DNA of 64,000 nt. Source: a virus. Each line of letters begins with the position of its first letter. Positions within the stretch are counted from its first letter, which is position 1. The notes below the pieces were generated by a model, which was not told the origin of the DNA, did no database searches, and worked only from the letters and a program-made list of their open reading frames with translations. The stretch spans positions 20,888 to 84,887 of the IMG/VR virus record IMGVR_UViG_3300035181_001867; one strand, 5' to 3'. This document shows positions 2,042 through 60,414 of this stretch, in pieces. The position numbers and the translations under genes are program-made.

Positions 2042-2094
2042 ACACTTTTTGTTGGTTTTCGTATATAATATACAAAACGGTTGAATGAAATATA

Positions 2095-3597
2095 GTGAAA
2101 TCACAATTAATGGAATATAACCTTTTTATACAACGGAATGGTAAATTAACTATATCTCCGTCGTATAATAAAATTATAAACAAACATGAATTTTTATTTA
2201 ACCGAATCAGAGAATTAACAAAATTTTTACCTGAACACGTTTCAACATATGAACGACTTTATTGCATATTACATAATATAAGTGAATCTCCAACGTGTGG
2301 GTATTGTTCTAACTTAATTCAATTTAGTCAAGGCAAAAAACACTATGCAACATATTGTCGCTCGTGTGTTCAAAAAGTTCCTGAAATAAGAGAAAAATAT
2401 TACCAAAAAATGGAAGATAAATATGGGGAAAAAATCCCAGCAAAAGTTCCATCTATTCAGCACCAGATTCAATCTACAATGGTTGAAAGATACGGAACAT
2501 CAAGCTACTTGGGATCAGATAAACACAAGAATGATCAAATAGAAAAAAATAATTTATTACGAGATGGTCTTTATCCAAACACATTTAAAATTAAAGACAT
2601 TTTACACAAAATTGATGACCCAGGTTGGTTAACTGAAGAGAATAAAAATAAATCCTTAATTCAGATTGCAACAGAACTTAACGTAAGTCCGTCATTAATC
2701 CAAAAACGATTCAATTTGTTTGATATCGCCGTTCAACAACATTTCCAATCTCAACCAGAACGTGAAGTTTGCGATTTTATTGCTTCACTTGGAATCGAAG
2801 TACAAACGAGAGTAAAAAAGTTTGGACCAGAAGTAGATGTTTATCTTCCAGAATACTCAATTGCTATAGAAATTGATGGAGTATACTGGCATAGTGAATT
2901 GAATGGAAAAAACAGAACATATCATATATCCAAAACAAATATGTTAAATTTACATGGTATTAGATTAATTCACATTATAGACGTTGAGTGGATTAATAAA
3001 AAAGATATTGTAAAATCGAGAATTTTATCATTATTAAATAAAAATACTGAAAAAATATACGCCCGAAAATGTAATATCGTAAATGTTAATTTTTCAGAAA
3101 GAAGAAATTTTATGAATGCGTATCATATTCAAGGTGATGTTGGTAGTTCTTATAACATAGGTCTTACGTTTGAAAATAAATTAGTAAGTGTTATGACTTT
3201 TGGAAAACCGCGATATGGAAAAGAAGAGTACGAATTAATCCGATTTGCTTCAAAACTTAACACCACTGTTGTGGGGGGTGCATCTAAATTATTTAAACAC
3301 TTCATTTTAGAAAAATCTCCCACGTCTGTAATATCCTATAGCGATAAACGATATAACACAGGAGGAGTATATTTAAATTTGGGGTTTACATTATCCCACA
3401 CAAGTTCACCCAATTATTGGTATTTTCACAGAAACAATCCATATCAACTATACTCAAGGAACGTATTTCAGAAACACAAATTGAGTGAAAAATTGGATTT
3501 ATTCGATCCACTTAAAACTGAATGGAATAATATGATCAATAGTGGTTATGATCGTATATGGGATTGTGGCAATGATGTGTGGACTTGGAAACCATAA
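2095..3597 (+). CDS. Putative free-standing homing endonuclease, YWHSE family, copy 1
   Basis: A 500-residue member of a four-copy family in this window. Order of parts: N-terminal helical segment; a C4 zinc site (C68-x2-C71 ... C88-x2-C91); a homing-endonuclease-type 'ERYG' motif repeat near 131; a helix-turn-helix-like segment near 187-205 (LIQIATELNVSPSLIQKRF); a Vsr-like PD-(D/E)XK nuclease core (E246, D248, E259, YWHSE at 264-268); a conserved 'YHIQG...GLTFENKLVSVMTFG' domain; and a terminal IWDCGNDVW motif. Such enzymes cut DNA and spread their own gene between phages. The start is a GTG at 2095; it aligns with the starts of the sister copies. Nuclease fold and homing role are inferred from motif layout and intergenic placement. 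Confidence 0.75.
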   Translation: MKSQLMEYNLFIQRNGKLTISPSYNKIINKHEFLFNRIRELTKFLPEHVSTYERLYCILHNISESPTCGYCSNLIQFSQGKKHYATYCRSCVQKVPEIREKYYQKMEDKYGEKIPAKVPSIQHQIQSTMVERYGTSSYLGSDKHKNDQIEKNNLLRDGLYPNTFKIKDILHKIDDPGWLTEENKNKSLIQIATELNVSPSLIQKRFNLFDIAVQQHFQSQPEREVCDFIASLGIEVQTRVKKFGPEVDVYLPEYSIAIEIDGVYWHSELNGKNRTYHISKTNMLNLHGIRLIHIIDVEWINKKDIVKSRILSLLNKNTEKIYARKCNIVNVNFSERRNFMNAYHIQGDVGSSYNIGLTFENKLVSVMTFGKPRYGKEEYELIRFASKLNTTVVGGASKLFKHFILEKSPTSVISYSDKRYNTGGVYLNLGFTLSHTSSPNYWYFHRNNPYQLYSRNVFQKHKLSEKLDLFDPLKTEWNNMINSGYDRIWDCGNDVWTWKP

Positions 3598-3671
3598 ACG
3601 ATTGGTTCCTTCTTTTTTTCTTAGTGTAAATATTTGTCATGCATATGCATAACACATTTAAGGAGAAACAA

Positions 3672-4127
3672 ATGCAAGGAAAATATAGAAACATTGAATG
3701 GCTGGAATTGGAAGGTGGAATTTTAACTGAATGTGCAATCATGAAACGTTCGAATGATGGTCATGTTTGGTTTTTCCCAATTAAACCACTTGATATGGTT
3801 GATAAACAACGGTTATTGAAGATTCTTCGTAACCGTAATGCTGAACTTTACGAACTCTGGGATTTGATGTCTCAAATCACACTTGGTAACGGCGTTAATG
3901 CTTTGACGTATTTTAACCAACTTGTTAAAGTTAGAACTCCATCAGGACAAGTTCTACCATTTGGAAGTGGACAATACGGAACACCTGTTCAAGCACAAGG
4001 CCCATATTCAAACCAAACCACGTTTGCAAACAACCAATCAGAACCAATGGCACCAATGACAGATTCAAGTCAATTACAAGCCGCTGTTGAAACTGCTAAA
4101 GCACCTGCTCGAGGTCGAACAAGATAA
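3672..4127 (+). CDS. Conserved phage protein of unknown function
   Basis: A 151-residue protein. I chose the Met at 3672, preceded by AAGGAG at ideal spacing; an upstream in-frame Met at 3639 has no binding site. The first 100 residues look compact and conserved (KPLDMVDKQRLLKILRNR, then NGVNALTYFNQLVKVRTPSG). The last 50 residues are low-complexity, rich in Q, P, A and T, and end in basic residues. I do not recognise a function; similar small proteins occur in aquatic T4-like phages. It is followed immediately by a bidirectional terminator shared with the convergent gene at 4184. Confidence 0.65.
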   Translation: MQGKYRNIEWLELEGGILTECAIMKRSNDGHVWFFPIKPLDMVDKQRLLKILRNRNAELYELWDLMSQITLGNGVNALTYFNQLVKVRTPSGQVLPFGSGQYGTPVQAQGPYSNQTTFANNQSEPMAPMTDSSQLQAAVETAKAPARGRTR

Positions 4128-4183: not shown

Positions 4184-5275
4184 TTATGTACTTCGTGCTA
4201 CCTGAATCGATAAAACGTACTTAATAGTCAATGTTCTATTGGCACTCTTTCTCACGGGACTGAAAATTAAATGTGTTAATAATCGTTCACCCTCCAAAGC
4301 AGGATTGGTTGGATCATTTTGAAAACCTTGATCTTGACCAGCAACAGCAGGACTCACGCTCCCCCCAAAACCTGTCAAATTAGAAAACAACCAATTAGAT
4401 GGAATCGTTGAGGGCGTCGTGATGTTAATAGATGAAGTGCTACCACTTGAATTAGATACAAAGCGAAGATTTCCAAAGGTGTTCACAGTCCCAGATGCAT
4501 TAGATATAGCAACAGTTGCACCAACTAACACGGAGTTAATGATATTTGTTAAATCACTAAATAAAATATCACCACCTGCACCACTACCTATACCTGTGTC
4601 AATTGTTATAACCTGTGCTGTTCCACCATCGACGGAAATAGTAAATGTATAATTTGTATTAACAGCCAAACCCGAAGAATCAGTATCTAGTTTGTTACTT
4701 ACATTCACTTCCTGATAACCAAGAGTTGCGTTGTGTGGTGCTCCTGTTGTATATAACCCGATTTCATCAAAAACAAATGCATCCCCTGTAGATTCGGAAG
4801 GTGGAAGAATATCAGTAGTAGATTGTCCAGCAGGCTCAAATGGATTTAGTGTAACAGAAACTGTAACAGATGAAATTAATCCACTCTCTGAACTAACAAC
4901 AGAATTTTTTGCAACATCATTTATGGGAGATGCTCCAGGTCCCGTGTCATCCAAAGCAGATGAGTCATCGACAATCTCACTGTATGTCTCGTTATAGAGA
5001 GATGATTTCCACCCTGCTGTGTCTGGCGCTTGTCCGTCATTTGGTGTTTTGTATGTAATCGTGTATGCAGCATCAACGATTGTTCCACCATTACCAAATG
5101 CCATACGATAAATGTAAAAATTATTTTCATTTGAGAGTGCTCGTGCAAAAACACGTGCCATATTTTCAGGGTGTATAGCGTTTGTCTTATCTAATAAGAC
5201 ATTATTTAAATCGTCTGTAATGCGTACATGTCCTTTTACACTAACAGGAAGGAAGTCTTTATTATTAAAATTCAT
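4184..5275 (-). CDS. Virion structural protein (tail/baseplate type)
   Basis: A 363-residue protein starting at the Met at 5275 (preceded by GGAGAAA and a late promoter at 5297-5304). The N-terminal part (LPVSVKGHVRITDDLNNVLL, then ENMARVFARAL) and the C-terminal part (PALEGERLLTHLIF ... LTIKYVLSIQ) look like one structural domain. Between them, about residues 195-315, lies an insert rich in T, S, G and N with the phrase NTNYTFTISVDGG, the style of surface-exposed domains inserted into phage or flagellar proteins. No enzymatic motif is visible. The late promoter and tail-gene context indicate a virion component; the exact position in the tail is unknown. Confidence 0.7.
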   Translation of the reverse strand: MNFNNKDFLPVSVKGHVRITDDLNNVLLDKTNAIHPENMARVFARALSNENNFYIYRMAFGNGGTIVDAAYTITYKTPNDGQAPDTAGWKSSLYNETYSEIVDDSSALDDTGPGASPINDVAKNSVVSSESGLISSVTVSVTLNPFEPAGQSTTDILPPSESTGDAFVFDEIGLYTTGAPHNATLGYQEVNVSNKLDTDSSGLAVNTNYTFTISVDGGTAQVITIDTGIGSGAGGDILFSDLTNIINSVLVGATVAISNASGTVNTFGNLRFVSNSSGSTSSINITTPSTIPSNWLFSNLTGFGGSVSPAVAGQDQGFQNDPTNPALEGERLLTHLIFSPVRKSANRTLTIKYVLSIQVARST

Positions 5276-6792
5276 TGTGTTTCTCCACGTTGTGCTGTAT
5301 TTATGGTGAACTTTATTAACCCACAATCCCATATTCTAAAAATTCCATTATTTTTACAGTTAACAACTTCACTCGAGTGTTCATCATACTTAGTAAGAAT
5401 TTTTTTAAGATTGTTGTGTCTAAAATTAAATTTGTGTATTCGTTTGTGATTAACAACATAATGATAATCAGGAGTAATGATATACTCCAAACTAAAACCA
5501 GTTTTGTGATACAAATTCCCTTCTCCCCATCTTCTGTCAGCAAAAGATACAAGTTGCGTGGGATTATAGTTTTTAATAAAATATGTTAGTAGTTTACTAA
5601 AACCTCCCACAACTTGTGCAGAAGTAGAATATCTATTAATTATATATCTATTATTTTTTTGTTTGATTAATCCCATACAAGCAACTAGTTCGTGTGTATC
5701 ATACAAACCAATATTAATAGAACTTGGACCATTACCTTGAATATGAGTATTTTCAAAAAATATTTGTTTTTCTTGTGTTGAAACATTAGATATATATGTT
5801 TGTCTAGCAAATACCCGTTTACGAGGGTCTTTTCCTAATATCGCAAGCAATTTCAATTTTACTATATCCTGTTTTAGTGTCCACTCATCTTCAAAAATTG
5901 TTATTAATCTAATGTCTTTAAGTAACAATTCGTTTAATTTATTTAAATGTGAATTTTTGGTGTTACGTTCAAAATAATCACTATGCCAATACAATCCACA
6001 ATATTCTATAGCAATATTATAATCTGGTAAAAAAACATCAATTTCTTTACCAGAAGTTAAGATTGTTCTATTGTTGAGTTCCACGGAGGTGAAATTTTGA
6101 AGAAATGAACCAATTTCTCGTTGAGCAAGTGATGTATTAAAATGTTTAATAGGAATATTGTACTTGTGTAAGTAATTCGAAACTGTGGTAGGATTTACTT
6201 GTAGATTGTTGGATATTTCTGCACACGATTTTTGTAAAACATGGTGTTCATGCGTCAACCAATTTATATCATTTAACAACGACAAAGTTTCATCACTAAA
6301 GTATTGTTGTTGAGGGTTTATTACTCCATAATTTGAAGCAAATGTATTGATGCGTTTTTGTTGAATGGATGAATTTTTCCAATGATGATCAACTCCGTAA
6401 CGAAACAAACAAGTATTTTTTCTTTTTTGTTTTTGTTCATCTGTTTGTCCCCCATATTCCACACCATATGTTTTTAACATAGTTTGTTTGTGTTTATTTC
6501 TTGTTTGAATATTGGATTGAGCACATATTGAGGAACAAAAAGTTCTATACGAAGATTGAACAAATGATGAAATCTTCCCACATTGTGGACATCTAGGAAC
6601 CGAAGTTATGTCTTTGAAAATACACAATAACCGTTCTTTCATAGAAGGTAAATAATCTTCTATATCAAGAAATTTAGTAAAATCAATTATTTGTTGTTCA
6701 ATCGAAGGATGTTTAACTAATATTCTTTTATAATTATTAGAAATTCCTTTTTCAGTTAGAATACCATTTTGTTTTAAAATACTTTTTAACAT
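5272..6792 (-). CDS. Putative free-standing homing endonuclease, YWHSE family, copy 2
   Basis: A 506-residue paralogue of the genes at 2095, 26434 and 31291. It has the zinc site C68-x2-C71 ... C86-x3-C90, three 'YGV' repeats (near 109, 132 and 155), a helix-turn-helix-like stretch near 189-207, the nuclease core E250, D252, E263 and YWHSD (268-272), the 'THIQGNGPSSINIGLY' domain, and the terminal IWDCG motif. The natural family end is about residue 487; the last 12 residues run through the promoter, ribosome binding site and first codon of the next gene, so the gene appears to have landed directly in front of that gene. It has its own late promoter (6815-6822). Likely a selfish endonuclease; target unknown. 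Confidence 0.75.
   Translation of the reverse strand: MLKSILKQNGILTEKGISNNYKRILVKHPSIEQQIIDFTKFLDIEDYLPSMKERLLCIFKDITSVPRCPQCGKISSFVQSSYRTFCSSICAQSNIQTRNKHKQTMLKTYGVEYGGQTDEQKQKRKNTCLFRYGVDHHWKNSSIQQKRINTFASNYGVINPQQQYFSDETLSLLNDINWLTHEHHVLQKSCAEISNNLQVNPTTVSNYLHKYNIPIKHFNTSLAQREIGSFLQNFTSVELNNRTILTSGKEIDVFLPDYNIAIEYCGLYWHSDYFERNTKNSHLNKLNELLLKDIRLITIFEDEWTLKQDIVKLKLLAILGKDPRKRVFARQTYISNVSTQEKQIFFENTHIQGNGPSSINIGLYDTHELVACMGLIKQKNNRYIINRYSTSAQVVGGFSKLLTYFIKNYNPTQLVSFADRRWGEGNLYHKTGFSLEYIITPDYHYVVNHKRIHKFNFRHNNLKKILTKYDEHSSEVVNCKNNGIFRIWDCGLIKFTINTAQRGETQ
5297..5304 (-). promoter_or_regulatory. T4-type late promoter inside the 3' end of homing endonuclease copy 2
   Basis: ATAAATAC on the minus strand, 22 bases before the start at 5275. 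It is embedded in the coding sequence of the upstream endonuclease gene, which ends at 5272. Confidence 0.65.
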
Positions 6793-26433: not shown

Positions 26434-28065
26434 TTACCAATTTTTAAAAGTTTGGAATTTGATTTTTCCACAATCCCACAATCGAAGAATTCCATCAGCA
26501 TCACAGTTCTGTTTTTCACTTAAAGAAGAATCAAAATTGTCTAACCGAAGTGGCAGATATTTTCGTCTAAAATTAAATTTATGATATCGTATATTATTTT
26601 TTATATAATAATAGTCTGGTTTTAGTTGTTTCACATTTTTAAACCCAACAGACAAATATAACTGTCCTTGACTATACCGCAAATCAGCGAATGTTTCAAT
26701 AACATTCCACTCGTATTGTTTTTTCAGAGCAGACAGTAACCGTGAAAATCCCCCAACAACAATCTTCGATGTTGCATACCTATTAATCAACAGCACCCCA
26801 CCTTTGTTTTGTATCACAGATATACATGCGACCAAAGAATTGTCTTCAAACAGTCCAATATTTATACTTCCAGGACCATCCCCCTGTAAATGATATTGCT
26901 CAAAAAACCTCTTCTTTTCGTTCACTCCAACCATTTTAATAGATAATTTTCTTGCAAACACTCTCGATTTTGTGGATCGATTTAGATTATGTAACAACAT
27001 ATCTTGTATTGTGGTTTGTTTTGTGAACCATTCATCCTCGTATATTGTAAAAAGACGAATGTTTTTATCCAAACACAATTTATACTTGTTATAGTGGTAT
27101 GTTGAATTTTTTCCAAGTTGCTCACTATGCCAATACAATCCACAATATTCTATTGCAATTTTATACTCGGGTAAATATATGTCTAATTCCAGTGGAGCAA
27201 TAATATTTCTAACATTCGTCTCGACCTTCAATCCATTACTAATTAAAAATTGGGATATTTGGTTTTGTCCAACAGACTCACGAAAGTGTTTCGTTTCTAT
27301 TCCAAATTTTGTTAAATATCTCCCCACTGTGGTATCATTAACTCCAACCCTTTCCGCGATTTGTGTTAAAGGTTGTTTAAGTTCAACGTGTTGGTGAAAT
27401 AACCATTCTGGATCATTTAATTTGTTTAGTGCGTCTTCTGTAATATGTGTTTGTGTAGGATGTTCCCGAGAAAATTTTTGTAAATTTGTCGCTTTTGTTT
27501 TTTGTTTGAAATTTTCTTCCTGTTGTATATAATCCACCCCATACCGTTCAACGTTTGTTCTTCTTACTTTTTGTTGAAACTTTGGTAATAACATGGGATG
27601 AATAACACCATATCTTTGCAAGTTTGTGTTTATCGCTTTAGACTTTATGCTGTCTAATTGGTTTGGGTTGGACACTCCATAGAGTAACACTGAATTGTCT
27701 CGTTTCTTTTGAATTATAGAAGGAACCTTACTAATATTTGATACTCCGAATGTGGCTATCACCCCATCTTTACACAACTGTTGTTGGATGGGGTCTTTGT
27801 TTTTACAAGAAACGCTACAGTAAGTGTTAAAACCGGAGGAAAATAATCGTCCCCATTTTGTTGGCCTTCCACAAATTTTACAGGAGGGGAGTTGTGAAAT
27901 GTTATTGATAAAACAAAAAAATCTTGCTGCAGGAGGGGAGTTTGGTGGTAAAAAGGAAGTTTCACTTAAAATTCTTTGTCGTATCAATGGTCTATTTTCT
28001 AACAAAGATGTTAATTTTTTTGTTCCCCCTGTTTCAATATGGTATTTCATTATTTGTTTCAACAC
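26434..28065 (-). CDS. Putative free-standing homing endonuclease, YWHSE family, copy 3
   Basis: A 543-residue paralogue with the same order of parts: a CKICG ... CSVSC zinc site, four 'YGV/FGV' repeats separated by Lys-rich helices, a helix-turn-helix-like stretch (LTQIAERVGVNDTTVGRYL), the nuclease core (LELDIYLPEYKIAIEYCGLY, then WHSE), the 'YHLQGDGPGSINIGLF' domain and a terminal LWDCG motif. The longest frame starts with ATG 28089, but that codon lies inside the late promoter (28089-28096), so it cannot be in the transcript. I chose GTG 28065: GAGGGAGAG lies 6 bases upstream and the N-terminus (LKQIMKYHIETGG) then aligns with copy 2 (LKSILKQNGILTEKG). Likely a selfish endonuclease. Confidence 0.75.
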   Translation of the reverse strand: MLKQIMKYHIETGGTKKLTSLLENRPLIRQRILSETSFLPPNSPPAARFFCFINNISQLPSCKICGRPTKWGRLFSSGFNTYCSVSCKNKDPIQQQLCKDGVIATFGVSNISKVPSIIQKKRDNSVLLYGVSNPNQLDSIKSKAINTNLQRYGVIHPMLLPKFQQKVRRTNVERYGVDYIQQEENFKQKTKATNLQKFSREHPTQTHITEDALNKLNDPEWLFHQHVELKQPLTQIAERVGVNDTTVGRYLTKFGIETKHFRESVGQNQISQFLISNGLKVETNVRNIIAPLELDIYLPEYKIAIEYCGLYWHSEQLGKNSTYHYNKYKLCLDKNIRLFTIYEDEWFTKQTTIQDMLLHNLNRSTKSRVFARKLSIKMVGVNEKKRFFEQYHLQGDGPGSINIGLFEDNSLVACISVIQNKGGVLLINRYATSKIVVGGFSRLLSALKKQYEWNVIETFADLRYSQGQLYLSVGFKNVKQLKPDYYYIKNNIRYHKFNFRRKYLPLRLDNFDSSLSEKQNCDADGILRLWDCGKIKFQTFKNW

Positions 28066-28088
28066 AACACACTCTCCCTCTGTATCCA

Positions 28089-28096
28089 TATTTATA
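28089..28096 (-). promoter_or_regulatory. T4-type late promoter that excludes the first ATG of copy 3
   Basis: Exact TATAAATA on the minus strand; its last base is the A of the upstream in-frame ATG at 28089. Confidence 0.75.
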
Positions 28097-31213: not shown

Positions 31214-31259
31214 CATTCGTTACACAAAGGTTGAAATGCGTTAAAATCTTTTCTTTCGG

Positions 31260-31267
31260 TATAAATA
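31260..31267 (+). promoter_or_regulatory. T4-type late promoter for homing endonuclease copy 4 (exact consensus)
   Basis: Exact TATAAATA on the plus strand, 24 bases before the ATG at 31291. It rules out the in-frame ATG at 31231, which lies upstream of it. Confidence 0.75.
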
Positions 31268-31290
31268 CACATATCAAAAAGAACGCAAAA

Positions 31291-32865
31291 ATGAAAATAA
31301 ATTATGAAGAACTTATAACAGAAGTTTTATATACCTCCAAGTCAATATCTTTGATAGCATCAGAACACAGCATATACACCAACACGTTATCAAAAAGAGT
31401 TAAATCTTTTCTCAACATCAAAACAATTGATGATATTATAAAATGGTGTGATATTGTTGATGATACAAGAAAAATAATATCTCCACGAGACAAAAACATG
31501 CAGGTATTGTGGGAACAAATAATAAATTCGACTTCTTTTTTATCTCCCAATAGTACATTAAGAGAAAGATTGTATTATATTAAAAATAACACATCAACAC
31601 CACCCAAATGTTTTTGTGGAAATGACTTAAAATGGAATACAACCACACAAAAAACATTTAATACATATTGTAGTCAAACGTGTGCGTTTTGTGTGTCAGA
31701 TTCAAATATAAAACGAAAACAAACAAACTTGAATCGTAGAGGAGTTGAGTATGCATATCTGGATGACACTGTTCGTGAGAAAAAAGAAAAAACAATGCTG
31801 GAGCGGTATGGAGATATAAATTTTAACAAATCAACGATTTCCATAGAATCTAAACGTGTATTATCAAACAAACAAATACTCCAAGAACTATATGATAAAC
31901 ACAAATCTACATTTTCAGTTGCATCTGAATTAGGAGTTAGTCAGGCACACATATCAAACACACTAGCCAAACATTCAATTCCAACCCAAACACACAACTC
32001 GTCTTTCGAACAACACATCAGAGATTACGTTGAATCTTTGGGGGTAATTAGCGGAAAAAGTAGAAATATCATTCCTCCACAAGAACTTGATATTTATATT
32101 CCTTCACTAAAACTCGCGTTTGAGTGTGACGGTTTATATTGGCACAGTGAACAGTTTAAAGAACCTAATTATCACTTAAACAAAACTAAAGAATGTGAAA
32201 AACAAGGTATTAGACTAATCCATGTTTTTGAACATGAATTCATAAATCACCCAGATAAAGTAAAATCAAGAATCTGTTCATTGTTAGGAAAGAATCAACG
32301 AATATATGGAAGGCAGTGTGAGTTACGAGAAATATCTTTTAAAGAAGGGTTTAGTTTTTTTGAAAAAACTCATATTCAAGGAGGATGCAGGAGTTCTTCT
32401 GTAAATTTAGGATTATTCTTCGACAAAGAACTTGTTGCATGCATGTCATTCTCGAAAACCAGGTATACCAAATCTGCTCAGTTTGAATTAATTAGATATA
32501 GTACTAAACTCTTTACCACAATAGTAGGAGGACCTTCTAAATTATTTAAAGCATTTGTTAAATCGCACCCAACTGCTTCAATTGTTAGTTATTCCGATAA
32601 AAGATGGAATACTGGAAATTTATACAATCAACTGGGATTTGTTCGAACACACGATTCATCTCCAAATTATTTTTATTTTAATCAATCCAAGGGATTGTTT
32701 CAAGTATACTCTCGAATCAAGTTCCAAAAACATAAATTAACAAATTTGTTGGAACGATACGACCCTAACCTCACTGAATATGAAAATATGAAGAACCATG
32801 GATATGAAAGAATCTGGGATTGTGGAAATTCTGTATGGATTTACACTCCCAATTATTCAAATTGA
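31291..32865 (+). CDS. Putative free-standing homing endonuclease, YWHSE family, copy 4
   Basis: A 524-residue paralogue on the opposite strand to the baseplate genes around it, with its own exact late promoter. Order of parts: N-terminal helix-turn-helix-like region; a zinc site (CFCGND ... CSQTC); a single 'ERYG' repeat; a second helix-turn-helix-like stretch (TFSVASELGVSQAHISNTL); nuclease core (QELDIYIPSLKLAFECDGLY then WHSE); the 'THIQGGCRSSSVNLGLFF' domain; and a terminal IWDCGNSVW motif. It sits between gp6 and gp25, which are usually adjacent, so it probably inserted there. The 3' end overlaps the convergent gp25 gene by 13 bases. Cleavage site unknown. Confidence 0.77.
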   Translation: MKINYEELITEVLYTSKSISLIASEHSIYTNTLSKRVKSFLNIKTIDDIIKWCDIVDDTRKIISPRDKNMQVLWEQIINSTSFLSPNSTLRERLYYIKNNTSTPPKCFCGNDLKWNTTTQKTFNTYCSQTCAFCVSDSNIKRKQTNLNRRGVEYAYLDDTVREKKEKTMLERYGDINFNKSTISIESKRVLSNKQILQELYDKHKSTFSVASELGVSQAHISNTLAKHSIPTQTHNSSFEQHIRDYVESLGVISGKSRNIIPPQELDIYIPSLKLAFECDGLYWHSEQFKEPNYHLNKTKECEKQGIRLIHVFEHEFINHPDKVKSRICSLLGKNQRIYGRQCELREISFKEGFSFFEKTHIQGGCRSSSVNLGLFFDKELVACMSFSKTRYTKSAQFELIRYSTKLFTTIVGGPSKLFKAFVKSHPTASIVSYSDKRWNTGNLYNQLGFVRTHDSSPNYFYFNQSKGLFQVYSRIKFQKHKLTNLLERYDPNLTEYENMKNHGYERIWDCGNSVWIYTPNYSN

Positions 32866-54761: not shown

Positions 54762-55454
54762 CTATACCGTAGTAGCTTCTAGAACTGCTTCTTTTGACTC
54801 CACAACTGTCTTGGTTTTCTTAACCTTCGGTGGTTTAGGAGCATCTGCGAGTTCTTTTGCTTTAGCTATATTTTTTAGACGTTTGTTGATTTGATCAGAA
54901 TCCATCCAAAAATCTTCACCTTTAATAATTTGATTAACTTCATCAGGAGTTAAAAAAGGAACACAGACATTCTTTAGAAGATTGTTGTACAGTTGGATAG
55001 CAGCAGTCAGTTCTTTGAATTGTTCGTTCCCTTTTGCACCTGAAGAACCACCACCTGAAAAATCGTGGAACATCATTCGACAGTTTTCATGAACAATATG
55101 TTGGTCTGCTGCAAGAAATATAATTGCTCCCATAGACGATGCTTCAGCTTCTAATACTGCTACGATGGTTGCATCTGATGAACGTAAAGCATTGACAATT
55201 TGAATGCCTGTATCCAATCTTCCACCCGGAGTATTTAAACAAATAAACACCATATCATCAGCTCCCGCATGACGAATTGTGTGAATCATGTCTGTGTATT
55301 CGCTAGGCTCTCTAATTGTTGAACTAATGTAAAACCAATATTCGGTTGCTTGATGGGTATGACTGTATAACGTGAATGCGGGTGGGCTTTGTAAAGGGAG
55401 GTCATCAAAATCTTGTTCGGAATTTCTACTTGAATGATTTATAATTTTTTTCAT
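54762..55454 (-). CDS. ClpP-like serine protease
   Basis: A 230-residue protease of the ClpP/crotonase fold. From the Met at 55454 (AAGGAAT site): strand and loop VFICLNTPGGRLDTGIQIVN (69-88), catalytic Ser in E104-A-S-S107-M-G-A, and catalytic His in M128-F-H130-D-F-S-G-G-G-S. The third residue is probably an Asp near 181-185 (EDFWMDSDQ). The Pro/Lys-rich C-terminal tail (KPPKVKKTKTV) is extra. In phages such proteins act as head-maturation proteases or as free ClpP homologues. No prohead genes are visible next to it, so the role is open. Located just downstream (in transcription order) of the tmRNA terminator. Confidence 0.85.
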   Translation of the reverse strand: MKKIINHSSRNSEQDFDDLPLQSPPAFTLYSHTHQATEYWFYISSTIREPSEYTDMIHTIRHAGADDMVFICLNTPGGRLDTGIQIVNALRSSDATIVAVLEAEASSMGAIIFLAADQHIVHENCRMMFHDFSGGGSSGAKGNEQFKELTAAIQLYNNLLKNVCVPFLTPDEVNQIIKGEDFWMDSDQINKRLKNIAKAKELADAPKPPKVKKTKTVVESKEAVLEATTV

Positions 55455-55523
55455 CTTATTTATTCCTTGAGTGGTTATTAAGTATTCATTATACAGGATA
55501 ATTTCAAAAGAAGTCAAGAAAAG

Positions 55524-55550
55524 AAAAAGGGGACCGAAGTCCCCCTTTTT
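55524..55550 (-). terminator. Strong rho-independent terminator after the tmRNA
   Basis: Stem GGGGAC / GTCCCC with a TTCG-type tetraloop (minus strand), flanked by A and T tracts (TTTTTCTTTTC on the minus strand). Confidence 0.9.
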
Positions 55551-55819
55551 GAAACGTTGTGTAATAAGGCGTTTCGCACCCCATTAACGGTCAAGCCGCT
55601 AAACGAGTTTCCCCGTAGAATGAATCATTTGCATTTATATGCTTTGCTTCTTTAATTGAGTCTCCTCAATACTAACGGCTTCTGCTTTGCCGAGCGCTAG
55701 TCGTCCTATATAATTCCACGTCGAATCCTGTCGCCCCCATAAAAATAATAATACCATTTTTCACCTGGTGGAGGCGGCGGCATACGATAGCCGCGTCCGC
55801 AAAACCCTTAATGACTAAA
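55551..55819 (-). ncRNA. ssrA: Circularly permuted two-piece tmRNA
   Basis: On the minus strand the gene reads: acceptor piece (about 55819-55766) ending in CGCCTCC-A-CCA; a 27-base intervening segment (55765-55739); then the coding piece beginning GGGGGCGACAGGATTCGACG at 55738. The 5' end GGGGGCG pairs with CGCCTCC to give a 7-bp acceptor stem with a G3-U70 wobble, the alanine identity signal, and CCA is encoded. GGATTCGACG is the conserved tmRNA 5' motif. A T-arm-like hairpin (GCGGC / GCCGC, 8-base loop) precedes the acceptor strand. A possible P2 helix pairs GACTA (55702-55698) with TAGTC (55817-55813). The tag frame is at 55632-55591, and GAAACG / CGTTTC after it may form a pseudoknot or hairpin. 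The T loop is atypical. Exact mature ends are inferred. Confidence 0.88.
55591..55632 (-). other. tmRNA tag reading frame (ANDSFYGETRLAA)
   Basis: GCA resume codon at 55632, then 12 codons and TGA at 55591-55593. The peptide starts A-N-D and ends L-A-A, as in tmRNA proteolysis tags recognised by ClpXP and related proteases. Confidence 0.85.
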
Positions 55820-56009
55820 GTTTACGCTGTTTCAATCTTCCTTTCACTAAACACATTTGATGCACTCTTGAATCAGACGACAATATATAATAATTTCGTT
55901 CACCATCATTGTACCACCGTCTTGAGTTTACCATTTTACTTTCATTGTGGCTGTGTACAGAAATCCATTCACAAGGAACTTGATCTTTTCTAAATTTTTT
56001 CTTTTCCAT
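55815..56009 (-). CDS. Small basic protein upstream of the tmRNA
   Basis: A 64-residue basic protein from the Met at 56009 (KKKFRKDQVPCEWISVHSHN, SRRWYNDGERNYYILSSD). Its stop at 55815 lies inside the predicted acceptor piece of the tmRNA, so the transcript is shared or the two overlap. It has a late promoter (56017-56024) but a weak ribosome binding site. No family recognised; could be a leader frame rather than a protein. Confidence 0.45.
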   Translation of the reverse strand: MEKKKFRKDQVPCEWISVHSHNESKMVNSRRWYNDGERNYYILSSDSRVHQMCLVKGRLKQRKL

Positions 56010-56016
56010 TGTTTTC

Positions 56017-56024
56017 GTATTTAT
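56017..56024 (-). promoter_or_regulatory. T4-type late promoter for the small gene and possibly the tmRNA
   Basis: ATAAATAC on the minus strand, about 200 bases before the acceptor piece and less than 10 bases before the ATG at 56009. Confidence 0.5.
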
Positions 56025-56090
56025 GTACCATCCAAACATTTGACCAACTTTAGACTACGTCTCAGTATCTTTCCAAAAGAAAGTTTACAA

Positions 56091-56126
56091 CCATTGCAAA
56101 ATAATTTTAAAATTGCTTTGCAATGG
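56091..56126. terminator. Hairpin, probable terminator after the 49-aa gene
   Basis: Perfect 10-bp inverted repeat CCATTGCAAA / TTTGCAATGG with a 16-base AT-rich centre that contains the stop codon of the gene at 56107. No strong T-tract, so activity is uncertain. Confidence 0.5.
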
Positions 56127-56313: not shown

Positions 56314-57108
56314 TTAATTAGGCGATAATAACTGATAGCCCCAATATTCAATGATTTCTTTCTTAGGTTCAAAGAACTCATTAATTCTACTAACGATATC
56401 TGGATAGTATTCTATAAATCGCTTAAACTTATCATCTGCATCATTTTTGAGCTCTTTGACTTTTTGTCCTTTTATCCAAAGTTCTGATGAGAAATCAATA
56501 TACTTTAGTTCAGGGAGCCATAGAGCCATTTGATCTCGATGGTATTCCGGTCTAGCAATAAAATCCTCATAAGTCATCACATAAGCAGTATCACCTAAGA
56601 GTGCGATATTATCTCTTTGCACCTCAAGTGTACGTGTTACGTGGTAACAAATTTGATCTAATTGTCGAATAGGATCCATTTGAAATGTAGCTTTACGGAA
56701 GATAGATTCTACGTAGTGGTAAGGATTTCGAACTGATAGTATCCATTTTAAATCATTAAAGTGAGGTAACATAGATTTAATTCTAAATATATCAGCTGGT
56801 GTCTTTTGCATTTTAATAGTGGCATATGGGTTTGTATTTCCCCAATTCTCTTCCCAGCGTGATTTAATCCAAGGCCAGTTATAGTTAGCTGGATCAGAAT
56901 ACACATGTTCCATATTCGCTTCAATTGAATGAGGTCCGTTTAATTTAACATAACCTCCTGGTGCACAGATATTTCCTTCAACAAAATCCTTTTTACCATT
57001 AAATTCCTCAGGACTTACTAAAGGTGTTATGTGTGGTACTGTTTCTAGAAGTGAATGTAGTAGTGTACTGCCACAAAAGTTAGGAATCGCTAGGAATAGA
57101 TAGGTCAT
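56314..57108 (-). CDS. Sulfotransferase family protein
   Basis: A 264-residue protein with the two PAPS-binding elements of sulfotransferases: the 5'-phosphosulfate loop near the N-terminus (I8-P-N-F-C-G-S-T-L-L) and the 3'-phosphate loop W122-I-L-S-V-R127-N-P ... S135 (VRNPYHYVES). The substrate part is unknown. It is next to two adhesin genes and a fibre chaperone, so modification of a surface glycan or a virion component is plausible but not shown. Sulfotransferases occur in some aquatic phages. The downstream part (FFEPKKEIIEYWGY) is typical of the family end. Confidence 0.8.
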   Translation of the reverse strand: MTYLFLAIPNFCGSTLLHSLLETVPHITPLVSPEEFNGKKDFVEGNICAPGGYVKLNGPHSIEANMEHVYSDPANYNWPWIKSRWEENWGNTNPYATIKMQKTPADIFRIKSMLPHFNDLKWILSVRNPYHYVESIFRKATFQMDPIRQLDQICYHVTRTLEVQRDNIALLGDTAYVMTYEDFIARPEYHRDQMALWLPELKYIDFSSELWIKGQKVKELKNDADDKFKRFIEYYPDIVSRINEFFEPKKEIIEYWGYQLLSPN

Positions 57109-57126: not shown

Positions 57127-58026
57127 TTAGGTGATGCCACCATAGACTCGGGTATTACCAGATACCCAAGTAATTGCTTTACCATTAGTATGGATAGCGA
57201 GGCCATGGCCTCCACCAGTTCCACCATGTCCACCACTATGTCCACCACCATGTCCACCACTAGCACCACCTCCACCACCCCCACCCCCATAAACACCCCC
57301 ATTATCTCCATTTTGTCCAAGCACGCCGCCATGGCCTATACGCACTCCGCCACCAGTAGCGCCACCGGCGGTACCGCAGCTACCGCCGCTAACCAAACCA
57401 CCATTAACACCGTAATGGGAGCCACGTCCACCTACACCAGCGATAGATCCAGCACCTCCACCACCGCCACAGTTAGAGCCTCCACCACCTCCACCACCTC
57501 CTCCGCCACTATAAATATATCCATTAGCATTGGTGATGGATACAGGCCATTGGAGGTTTATGCCAGGTCCGCCGGCTAGACCAGAACCACCAGTAGCTAA
57601 GCTTGACGACCCACCTCTACCACCATTACCACCAGCACCAGCTATGTATCCATTATTTACAATAGAAATGGTGTCACCAGTGGTCCAGCCACTACCAGTA
57701 TCCAATGAATAGGTAGTTCTACTAGTAGATCCAACCACTACACCACTATTGATTGTTAAAGTAATTACGGAATTACCAGCTATATAGTTACTACCTCTAT
57801 TAGTAAAGATATTATAATTCTTAATATTACTAGCTATGGTAATATTAATCACACCACTTTGATTGTGTGATTTACCATATCCATTTGCTAGTGATATTGA
57901 ACCACTTGAAATACCGAATAAACTACGTACTGCTGCATCGTTTAATGAAATAGTAGCTGACGCTGAATAACCTAATTCTACGTCTACTTCTCCTAAATCT
58001 ATAGCACCACTAGCTGGTAATGTCAT
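57127..58026 (-). CDS. Polyglycine tail adhesin, copy 1
   Basis: A 299-residue protein. Residues 1-50 (ASGAIDLGEVDVELGYSASA ... DAAVRSLFGI) are a common phage tail-tip N-terminus. Residues 50-130 form a β-domain. Residues 130-275 are dominated by glycine (GGGGGGGGGGS, GGHGGGHSGGHGG), the composition of polyglycine-II adhesins such as those at the tip of T4-like long fibres (gp38 of phage S16). The last 25 residues (GLAIHTNGKAITWVSGNT) are identical to those of copy 2. Receptor binding is inferred. Confidence 0.8.
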   Translation of the reverse strand: MTLPASGAIDLGEVDVELGYSASATISLNDAAVRSLFGISSGSISLANGYGKSHNQSGVINITIASNIKNYNIFTNRGSNYIAGNSVITLTINSGVVVGSTSRTTYSLDTGSGWTTGDTISIVNNGYIAGAGGNGGRGGSSSLATGGSGLAGGPGINLQWPVSITNANGYIYSGGGGGGGGGGSNCGGGGGAGSIAGVGGRGSHYGVNGGLVSGGSCGTAGGATGGGVRIGHGGVLGQNGDNGGVYGGGGGGGGASGGHGGGHSGGHGGTGGGHGLAIHTNGKAITWVSGNTRVYGGIT

Positions 58027-58045: not shown

Positions 58046-58930
58046 TTAGGTGATGCCACCATAGACTCGGGTATTACCAGATACCCAAGTAATTGCTTTA
58101 CCATTAGTATGGATAGCGAGGCCATGGCCTCCACCAGTTCCACCTTGAGCAAAATTAGCATTGCCACCATGTCCACCACTAGCACCACCTCCACCACCTC
58201 CACCACCACTATAAAAAATACCCCCACCAGCTCCATTTTGTCCAAGCCCACCGCCACCGGGGTTTTTCGCACCCCCACCGTTACCGCCATTAACCAAACC
58301 ACCATTAACACCGTAATTGGGGCCATGTCCACCTACACCAGCGATAGATCCAGCACCTCCACCACCGCCACCACCGTTAGAGCCTCCACCACCTCCACCA
58401 CCTCCTCCGCCACTATAAATATATCCATTAGCGTTAGTGATGGATACAGGCCACTGGAGGTTTATGCCGGGTCCACCGGCTATACCAGGAGCACCATTAC
58501 CGAGGCTGGCCGACGCACCTTTACCACCATCACCACCAGCACCAGCTATGTATCCATTATTTACAATAGAAATGGTATCGCCAATAGTCCAACCACTACC
58601 AGTATCCAATGAATAGGTAGATGCGCTAGTAGACCCAACCACTATACCGCTATTGATTGTTAAATTAATAGTGGAAATACCAGCTCTATAGTTACTACCT
58701 CTATTAGCAAAGATATTATAATTCTTAACATTACTAGCTATGGTAATATTAACCACATTACTATTGCTATGTGATTTACCATATCCATTTGCTAGTGATA
58801 TTGAACCACTTGAAATACCGAATAAACTACGTACTGCTGCATCGTTTAATGAAATAGTAGCTGACGCTGAATAACCTAATTCTACGTCTACTTCTCCTAA
58901 ATCTATAGCACCACTAGCTGGTAATGTCAT
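58046..58930 (-). CDS. Polyglycine tail adhesin, copy 2
   Basis: A 294-residue paralogue of the gene downstream. N-terminal 54 residues and C-terminal 25 residues are identical to copy 1, while the glycine-rich loops differ (for example GGNGGGAKNPGGGG and SGGHGGNANFAQGG here). This is the pattern expected of a receptor-binding protein diversified by recombination in its loops. The direct neighbour upstream is the fibre chaperone. Receptor binding is inferred. Confidence 0.8.
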   Translation of the reverse strand: MTLPASGAIDLGEVDVELGYSASATISLNDAAVRSLFGISSGSISLANGYGKSHSNSNVVNITIASNVKNYNIFANRGSNYRAGISTINLTINSGIVVGSTSASTYSLDTGSGWTIGDTISIVNNGYIAGAGGDGGKGASASLGNGAPGIAGGPGINLQWPVSITNANGYIYSGGGGGGGGGGSNGGGGGGGAGSIAGVGGHGPNYGVNGGLVNGGNGGGAKNPGGGGLGQNGAGGGIFYSGGGGGGGGASGGHGGNANFAQGGTGGGHGLAIHTNGKAITWVSGNTRVYGGIT

Positions 58931-59991: not shown

Positions 59992-60414
59992 ATGTTAATT
60001 CATTCAAAGTATTGTAATTTTAATCTATCAGTTCACATAATTTTTGTCTGTAAATATCGTAAGAAACTTTTAATTAAGTTTGGCGACGAAATTAAACAGT
60101 TATTATTATCGAGGTCTGATCAATCCAAATCTTATGAAATCAAAACTATCGAGGTAGATCAGGATCACGTCCATATGATGATTGGCTTCACTCCTGGAGA
60201 AACTGTTCAGAATATTGTCAAACAGTTAAAATCTTACACCGTGTTTCATATTTGGGACAGGTATTCAGAGTTAGAACATCAATTCTGGAAAAAGAAGATG
60301 TTTTGGTCAGATGGATATTTTGCTTGTTCAGTTGGAGACGCAAGTAGAGAAACAATTCAGCGTTATATTGAAACTCAAGGTGGTCGTCCACAACTAATTC
60401 ATCCCAGATGTTGA
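59992..60414 (+). CDS. tnpA: IS200/IS605 family transposase TnpA
   Basis: A 140-residue HUH single-strand transposase of full family length. N-terminus NLSVHIIFVCKYRKKLLIK; HUH motif H59-V-H61 in QDHVHMMIGF; catalytic tyrosine Y125 in TIQRYIETQGG. Such enzymes cut and join single-stranded DNA at subterminal hairpins and insert near short tetra- or pentanucleotide targets. No frameshift is seen, so it may be active. The gene is on the plus strand, opposite to its neighbours. Confidence 0.9.
   Translation: MLIHSKYCNFNLSVHIIFVCKYRKKLLIKFGDEIKQLLLSRSDQSKSYEIKTIEVDQDHVHMMIGFTPGETVQNIVKQLKSYTVFHIWDRYSELEHQFWKKKMFWSDGYFACSVGDASRETIQRYIETQGGRPQLIHPRC

Follow-up and report, generated by a model that had tools for sequence, protein, structure and literature searches.

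What kind of RNA gene lies on the minus strand of this viral DNA (64,000 nucleotides, referred to here as the window), how did it obtain its present form, and what might it do for a phage? An earlier note had proposed a phage-encoded, circularly permuted two-piece tmRNA and had considered that such a copy in a T4-like phage would be rare.

A permuted tmRNA gene on a T4-like phage record

Comparison of the window with Rfam 15 gave a single match, RF04321 (tmRNA_permuted), which spans the full model (1–213) and scores 93.4 bits against a gathering threshold of 47, with E = 9e-17 for the 64 kb searched. The features of the locus are collected in Table 1. The acceptor piece lies 5' of the coding piece with a short spacer between them, and the anatomy described in the earlier note was borne out: the 7-bp acceptor stem GGGGGCG/CGCCTCC with G3 opposite U70, the encoded CCA, an intervening segment of the proposed 27 bases, a tag frame closed by a stop codon and a strong terminator after the tag are all present. 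The frame includes a resume codon, and the tag ANDSFYGETRLAA has a hydrophobic end, LAA of the ClpX type. Folding of the precursor with RNAfold recovered the acceptor stem and the T-stem (z -2.05), the rest of the fold being not decisive. At the level of the primary sequence, the two-piece architecture, the predicted alanine identity (G3-U70), the encoded CCA, the tag and the terminator are established.

Table 1. Positions in the window of the features at and around the tmRNA gene
Feature	Positions	Strand	Basis
ClpP-like serine peptidase	54762–55457	-	phrog_1827 9e-51; PF00574 9e-11
Intrinsic terminator of the tmRNA unit	55524–55549	-	also in L005, L006, L007
Permuted tmRNA gene (acceptor piece, intervening segment, coding piece to tag stop)	55591–55829	-	RF04321
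Tag frame ANDSFYGETRLAA (55632–55594) and stop TGA (55593–55591)	55591–55632	-	sequence
Replaced tract, 420 bp vs 196 bp in L005 (3610–3805)	55649–56068	.	L005 alignment
Acceptor 5' strand GGGGGCG (55738–55732) and 11-nt D-segment ACAGGAUUCGA	55721–55738	-	sequence
Intervening segment, exactly 27 nt, putatively removed from the precursor	55739–55765	-	sequence
Acceptor 3' strand CGCCTCC (55776–55770) and ACCA (55769–55766), CCA encoded	55766–55776	-	sequence
T-arm GCGGC-UAUCGUAU-GCCGC, 8-nt loop at 55782–55789	55777–55794	-	sequence
74-aa ORF, C-terminal remnant of HNH-type homing endonuclease	55815–56039	-	similarity to L086 HNH protein
24-nt stub GGTTGTAAACTTTCTTTTGGAAAG of displaced resident acceptor piece	56069–56092	-	equals 5' end of L005 tmRNA, L005 3586–3609

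With RF04321 and RF01850 the window tmRNA shares the gene order, the G3-U70 stem, the encoded CCA, the GG of the D-loop and a tag followed by a stop. It differs from them in its 8-nt T-loop UAUCGUAU closed by C-G, in a D-segment that is 1 nt shorter, in that no tmRNA was reported when ARAGORN was run on the window, and in a score of 55.7 bits with the RF01850 model (beta_tmRNA), below the threshold of 84 of that model. The universal T-loop is UUCRANN closed by G53-C61, which is typical for the family and optional in the RF04321 model; because the window tmRNA departs from it, we filed the gene as a variant of RF04321.

The proposed T4-like context agrees with the 84,887-bp virus record, which carries a T4-type topoisomerase II large subunit and a DNA primase and also a DnaB-like helicase, a baseplate-type protein and ribonucleotide reductase. 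Other genes in the window include a tandem pair of near-duplicate glycine-rich tail-fibre-like genes (57127–58026 and 58046–58930, minus strand) adjoined by a sulfotransferase-like gene (56314–57108), and an ORF (59992–60414, plus strand) that by eye resembles an IS200-type (TnpA, HUH) transposase. The supposed rarity did not hold. In phage genomes, 53 two-piece tmRNAs have been published, 50 of which come from marine or aquatic samples and one of which belongs to the T4-like methylophage Melnitz (PMC9004378), and our pattern scans of IMG/VR contigs raised the number of permuted tmRNAs by far more than one hundred; our table of distinct ones lists 158. BLASTN of the window tmRNA against 50,697 phage records gave no match. 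Like ssrA of Melnitz (PMC9004378), the window gene is a two-piece tmRNA of a T4-like phage, the Melnitz phage being aquatic. Melnitz has a glutamine riboswitch (PMC9004378), of which no Rfam match was found in the 64-kb window; the window tmRNA has a ClpP neighbour. The Melnitz paper (PMC9004378) makes no mention of T-loops, homing endonucleases or ClpP. The two-piece form in phages is already known, and the new part is the unusual T-loop together with the domain swap; the non-canonical T-loop, the domain replacement and the linkages to homing endonucleases and to ClpP had been missed in the earlier note.

An eight-nucleotide T-loop and its matching D-loop

In the window tmRNA the octamer UAUCGUAU is closed by C53-G61 instead of G-C. 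Viral contigs were scanned for this octamer with TCCACCA 9 nt downstream, which gave at least 119 stretches, and a paired-stem filter was applied to them. Among the matches listed, most of those left after the filter are clear tmRNAs in which the loop is invariant and the stems vary on both sides, and at least 28 distinct viral tRNA-like domains, from permuted as well as from standard tmRNAs, carry the octamer. In 28 distinct sequences among these matches, all 336 of 336 pair cells hold standard pairs, and double-sided changes number 45 compared with 9.3 in shuffles (0 of 500 shuffles were as high). Among the same matches, 21 permuted genes and 14 standard ones could be paired with their 5' acceptor strand, with G3-U70 in all, and 17 of the 19 recovered tags end in AA. 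A sequencing error as the source of the unusual loop was rejected, as the octamer recurs across contigs, and for the same reason an assembly error in the single contig of the window is very unlikely. No publication coupling the octamer with tmRNA was found in a literature search.

When 84,980 bacterial and archaeal species genomes were scanned with a pattern that demanded an encoded CCA, and that thus covers only cellular tmRNAs of this kind, two matches were obtained. One (L254) was rejected as a chance match, and the single true tmRNA lies on a 7.2-kb contig of a metagenome-assembled genome, with an endonuclease gene abutting it. Among the 50,697 phage records there was no credible match to the T-arm with UAUCGUAU. 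ARAGORN detected none of 22 octamer loci, whereas it detected most canonical relatives. As the main curated tmRNA database consists mainly of ARAGORN and BLASTN hits, with 79 phage sequences (PMC11915505), phage tmRNAs are probably under-counted. These results show that the predicted tRNA-like domain with the octamer forms a distinct, recurring class, its D-segment being 1 nt shorter than in canonical relatives.

The pairs U54-A58 and G53-C61 and the contacts U55-G18 and C56-G19 belong to the best-conserved features of tRNA and tmRNA. In the tRNA elbow, U55 contacts G18 and C56 pairs with G19 (PMC7912444), and the function of SmpB needs the interaction of the D- and T-loops (PMC3968760). Because an earlier pattern scan had fixed a 4-nt D-spacer, two loop-agnostic scans, in which neither loop was fixed, were added for the analysis of D/T coupling, and the canonical set from the earlier scan was excluded from the unbiased test of D-segment length. 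The loop-agnostic scans revealed that the T-loops of phage permuted tmRNAs fall into UUCRANN, UGCRANN, GGCRGNN, a 6-nt UUCGAN with a C-G closing pair, and some rarer loops. In this sample U55 occurs with G18 in 31 of 31 cases, and G55 with a residue other than G18, nearly always A, in 41 of 46 (Fisher 1e-16, a value in which shared ancestry inflates independence). D- and T-loops therefore change together across phage tmRNAs (U55/G18 versus G55/A18). Among the octamer matches listed, a D-segment of 11 nt that keeps GG is present in 20 of 21 permuted and 13 of 13 standard tmRNAs, compared with at least 12 nt in nearly all canonical tmRNAs. All 80 of 80 canonical loops are closed by G-C; a C-G or U-A pair closes every loop of 6 or 8 nt and is confined to these lengths. 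In the L417 tmRNA a T-loop GUGGUG is accompanied by CC in the D-loop. The octamer may be read as a T-loop extended by one A-U pair (U-A-UCG-U-A-U), which would leave UC for the GG of the D-loop.

The recurrent non-canonical T-loops with their covarying D-loops show elbow geometries that may be acceptable to the ribosome, AlaRS, EF-Tu and SmpB, and tmRNAs with the octamer and the other loops offer a ready-made mutational series. Two tmRNAs linked to ClpP genes have aberrant loops, namely T-loop GUGGUG with D-loop CC, judged by eye, in L007 (3500–3872) and T-loop UGGGAUU with D-loop CA in L108 (906–1115), which is consistent with a swapped D/T contact.

Exchange of the tRNA-like half next to homing endonucleases

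How the octamer domain may have entered the window is indicated by a sister phage, L005, whose ClpP gene is identical to that of the window over most of its length and whose flanks are 98.9% identical downstream and 93–97% upstream. The permuted tmRNA of L005 (124 bits; 120 bits with the beta_tmRNA model) has the same tag, ANDSFYGETRLAA, the same 3' hairpin and the same terminator as the window, while the tag of a further relative, L006, is ANDSYYGETRLAA. The tRNA-like half of L005 is unrelated in sequence to that of the window, with a canonical T-arm AGGAG-UUCGACU-CUCCU, an acceptor stem GGGGCCG/CGGCUCC and a longer spacer. Identity between both phages ends at window position 56069 and is back at 55648, and the 420 bp between contain what remains of the endonuclease and, from the tmRNA, the acceptor piece, the spacer and the beginning of the coding piece. 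The predicted tRNA-like half, the pseudoknot region that follows it and the endonuclease remnant thus differ as one block, with the tag and the terminator unchanged. By this comparison, whole tRNA-like halves are exchanged. The break lies close to the tag on its upstream side, so that every pairing within the tRNA-like domain stays inside the exchanged block.

Over 62 residues the 74-aa ORF shares 37% identity with the C-terminal end of a 222-aa HNH protein (PF01844) of L086, where the full gene abuts a permuted tmRNA with a 6-nt T-loop. The stop codon of the 74-aa ORF falls within the acceptor piece, and no close full-length donor of the remnant was found in the viral contigs searched. If abutting is defined as an ORF ending no more than about 25 nt from the acceptor piece, ORFs of the homing-endonuclease type abut 10 of 21 permuted octamer tmRNAs among the matches listed and 0 of 75 canonical ones (Fisher exact P = 3e-8; the contigs share ancestry and P therefore overstates independence). 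The abutting proteins are SegE-like GIY-YIG (L189, L194, L221), LEM-3-like GIY-YIG (L193), NUMOD3 (L162), HNH (L190) and an endonuclease VII/HNH-type protein (L255), the window having a remnant only. L175 and L185 are called GIY-YIG only through their similarity to L193, which is itself a weak Pfam match, and full-length endonuclease genes stand at the acceptor piece in L162, L189, L190, L193, L194, L221 and L255. Exceptions with an abutting endonuclease in the remaining loop classes are L086, L417 and L433.

Free-standing GIY-YIG and HNH endonucleases of T4 (seg, mob) cut the genome of a relative, spread and co-convert the flanks, and homing by SegB acts in the tRNA region of T4 (PMC2988022). 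As with the T4 enzymes, a flanking block is replaced between near-identical phages (420 vs 196 bp); beside the putatively converted locus the window has a 74-aa C-terminal remnant of an endonuclease. The window differs from the T4 cases in that the neighbour is the tRNA-like domain of a tmRNA, that the endonuclease is a remnant and that cleavage is postulated. Group I introns and integrases also use the T-loop region of tmRNA (PMC11915505), the same part of the gene that would have been targeted in the window; unlike in those cases, no intron or att site was identified in the window and the endonuclease is placed outside the RNA, bordering the acceptor piece on its 5' side.

The window/L005 pair resembles the outcome of a co-conversion event driven by an endonuclease, in which the 420-bp block would have entered by gene conversion tied to a free-standing homing endonuclease (intronless homing), and it offers a natural experiment on homing-linked exchange of a domain in an RNA gene. 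The altered T-loop might represent an allele that is no longer recognised by such endonucleases, perhaps also by integrases or group I introns, and the changes in the D-loop would keep the elbow working. We consider it probable that the phage encodes a working permuted tmRNA whose elbow is remodelled and which was spread by gene conversion linked to endonucleases. A wider proposal is put forward more tentatively, as a possibility that falls short of an even chance: phage tmRNA genes may be a battleground of homing endonucleases, whose genes would settle beside the tRNA-like domain and bring endonuclease-proof T-loops (chiefly UAUCGUAU) with them, a fitting D-loop being restored on each occasion. 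Viruses would in this way have explored elbow geometries hardly used by cells and unseen by standard annotation tools.

Several other origins for the unusual loop have to be weighed. An ordinary permuted tmRNA acquired from the host, with the T-loop of the host lineage and endonuclease neighbours that are incidental, would fit the occurrence of permuted tmRNAs in many phages, alpha- and betaproteobacteria and cyanobacteria (PMC9004378, PMC11915505) and the good fit of the L005 tmRNA to the beta_tmRNA model. It is quite unlikely in view of the single true match that a scan for tmRNAs with an encoded CCA gave in all the species genomes, compared with dozens in viral contigs, and of L005, where exactly the tRNA-like half is replaced. 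That the gene is decaying, out of use with a T-loop damaged by recombination, appears very improbable: a broken endonuclease ORF does overlap the tmRNA and part of the former acceptor piece remains as a stub, but there is no damage to the tag, acceptor stem, CCA, terminator or D-segment, and among the matches listed 28 distinct tRNA-like domains share the octamer unchanged on stems with compensatory changes. The altered elbow could also serve mainly to evade attack or modification at the RNA level (T-loop nucleases, dependence on TrmA and TruB, defences that sense tmRNA) and not DNA endonucleases. The m5U and pseudouridine of the T-loop are made by TrmA and TruB (PMC3968760), and phages have several different loops with matched D-loops; evasion of this kind leaves the link between octamer and homing endonucleases and the replaced tract unexplained, and we regard it as unlikely.

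Further nuclease-like and mobile genes were observed. L006 has a different endonuclease-like gene (2926–3864; DUF723/DUF4379 repeats) between tmRNA and ClpP, and L113 has a TnpB/OrfB_IS605-like gene (2061–3248) 160 nt upstream of the tmRNA. In the window, four ORFs of 500–551 aa (2095–3597 and 31231–32865, plus strand; 5272–6792 and 26434–28089, minus strand) share DUF7487, some of them with Vsr/MTES_1575 nuclease-like domains; lying among tail genes, they look like a family of free-standing homing endonucleases of large size.

The ClpP neighbour and the tags

Downstream of the tmRNA lies a gene for a ClpP-like protein, which scores 42.5 bits against PF00574 (cut-off 20.2) and is preceded by a predicted sigma70-like promoter (55517–55488; promoter-like site 11/12). 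S108, H131 and D182, corresponding to the ClpP triad, are invariant in A1 when aligned to solved ClpP. An AlphaFold model of the protein was discarded (mean pLDDT 44). A search with a ClpP profile found 16 contigs of 17.5–350 kb, and in 16 of 16, as in the window, a permuted tmRNA lies upstream, at a distance of about 0.2–1.5 kb in these contigs (L118–L120 are contigs of L015, L034 and L037). The tags of the ClpP-linked tmRNAs vary (ANDSYYGETRLAA, ANDAFYGEMRLAA, ANDSAFAMAA, ANDSVYALAA and others) and nearly all end in AA.

No SmpB was found in the record of the window nor in 18 related records, and no ClpX-type AAA unfoldase scored above threshold in nine records; as neither is encoded, the phage would rely on SmpB and ClpX of the host. 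In the role during infection that we propose, host RNases would divide the precursor in two, the tmRNA would be used by the AlaRS, SmpB, EF-Tu and ribosomes of the host, and tagged proteins would be passed to ClpX with either host or phage ClpP. One might go further and see in tmRNA and ClpP-like gene a single tag-and-degrade module of the phage, for whose sake the RNA is kept. The tandem order, which holds for ClpP identities as low as about 42% and with differing genes on the upstream side, and the conserved catalytic triad speak for such a module. However, the ClpP query profile was built from ClpPs linked to tmRNAs, the terminator and the promoter-like site stand between both genes and give them separate signals, the cultured jumbo phages XacN1 and RAS14, in which ARAGORN detects no tmRNA, have their ClpP adjacent to primase, and the unfoldase is absent above threshold from the nine records, and we therefore hold the module to be doubtful as the reason for keeping the RNA. 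With the conserved pairing of tmRNA and ClpP, what phages use their tmRNAs for can be put to the test.

Some phage permuted tmRNAs have long tags of 27–33 aa (L139 at about 12290 and L185 at about 4857, both on the plus strand; L075/L091, L200, L018, L046 and L081). Several of these lack the AA end, for example ANANTKSGVVTVSGKGVKFSARTAKAALV, ASKGEVTVSASKGIRFSARSSVKAETFAV and ATASTKGSFKFSGKGVKLASAAREAVMA, and the long tags might be tags for purposes other than degradation.
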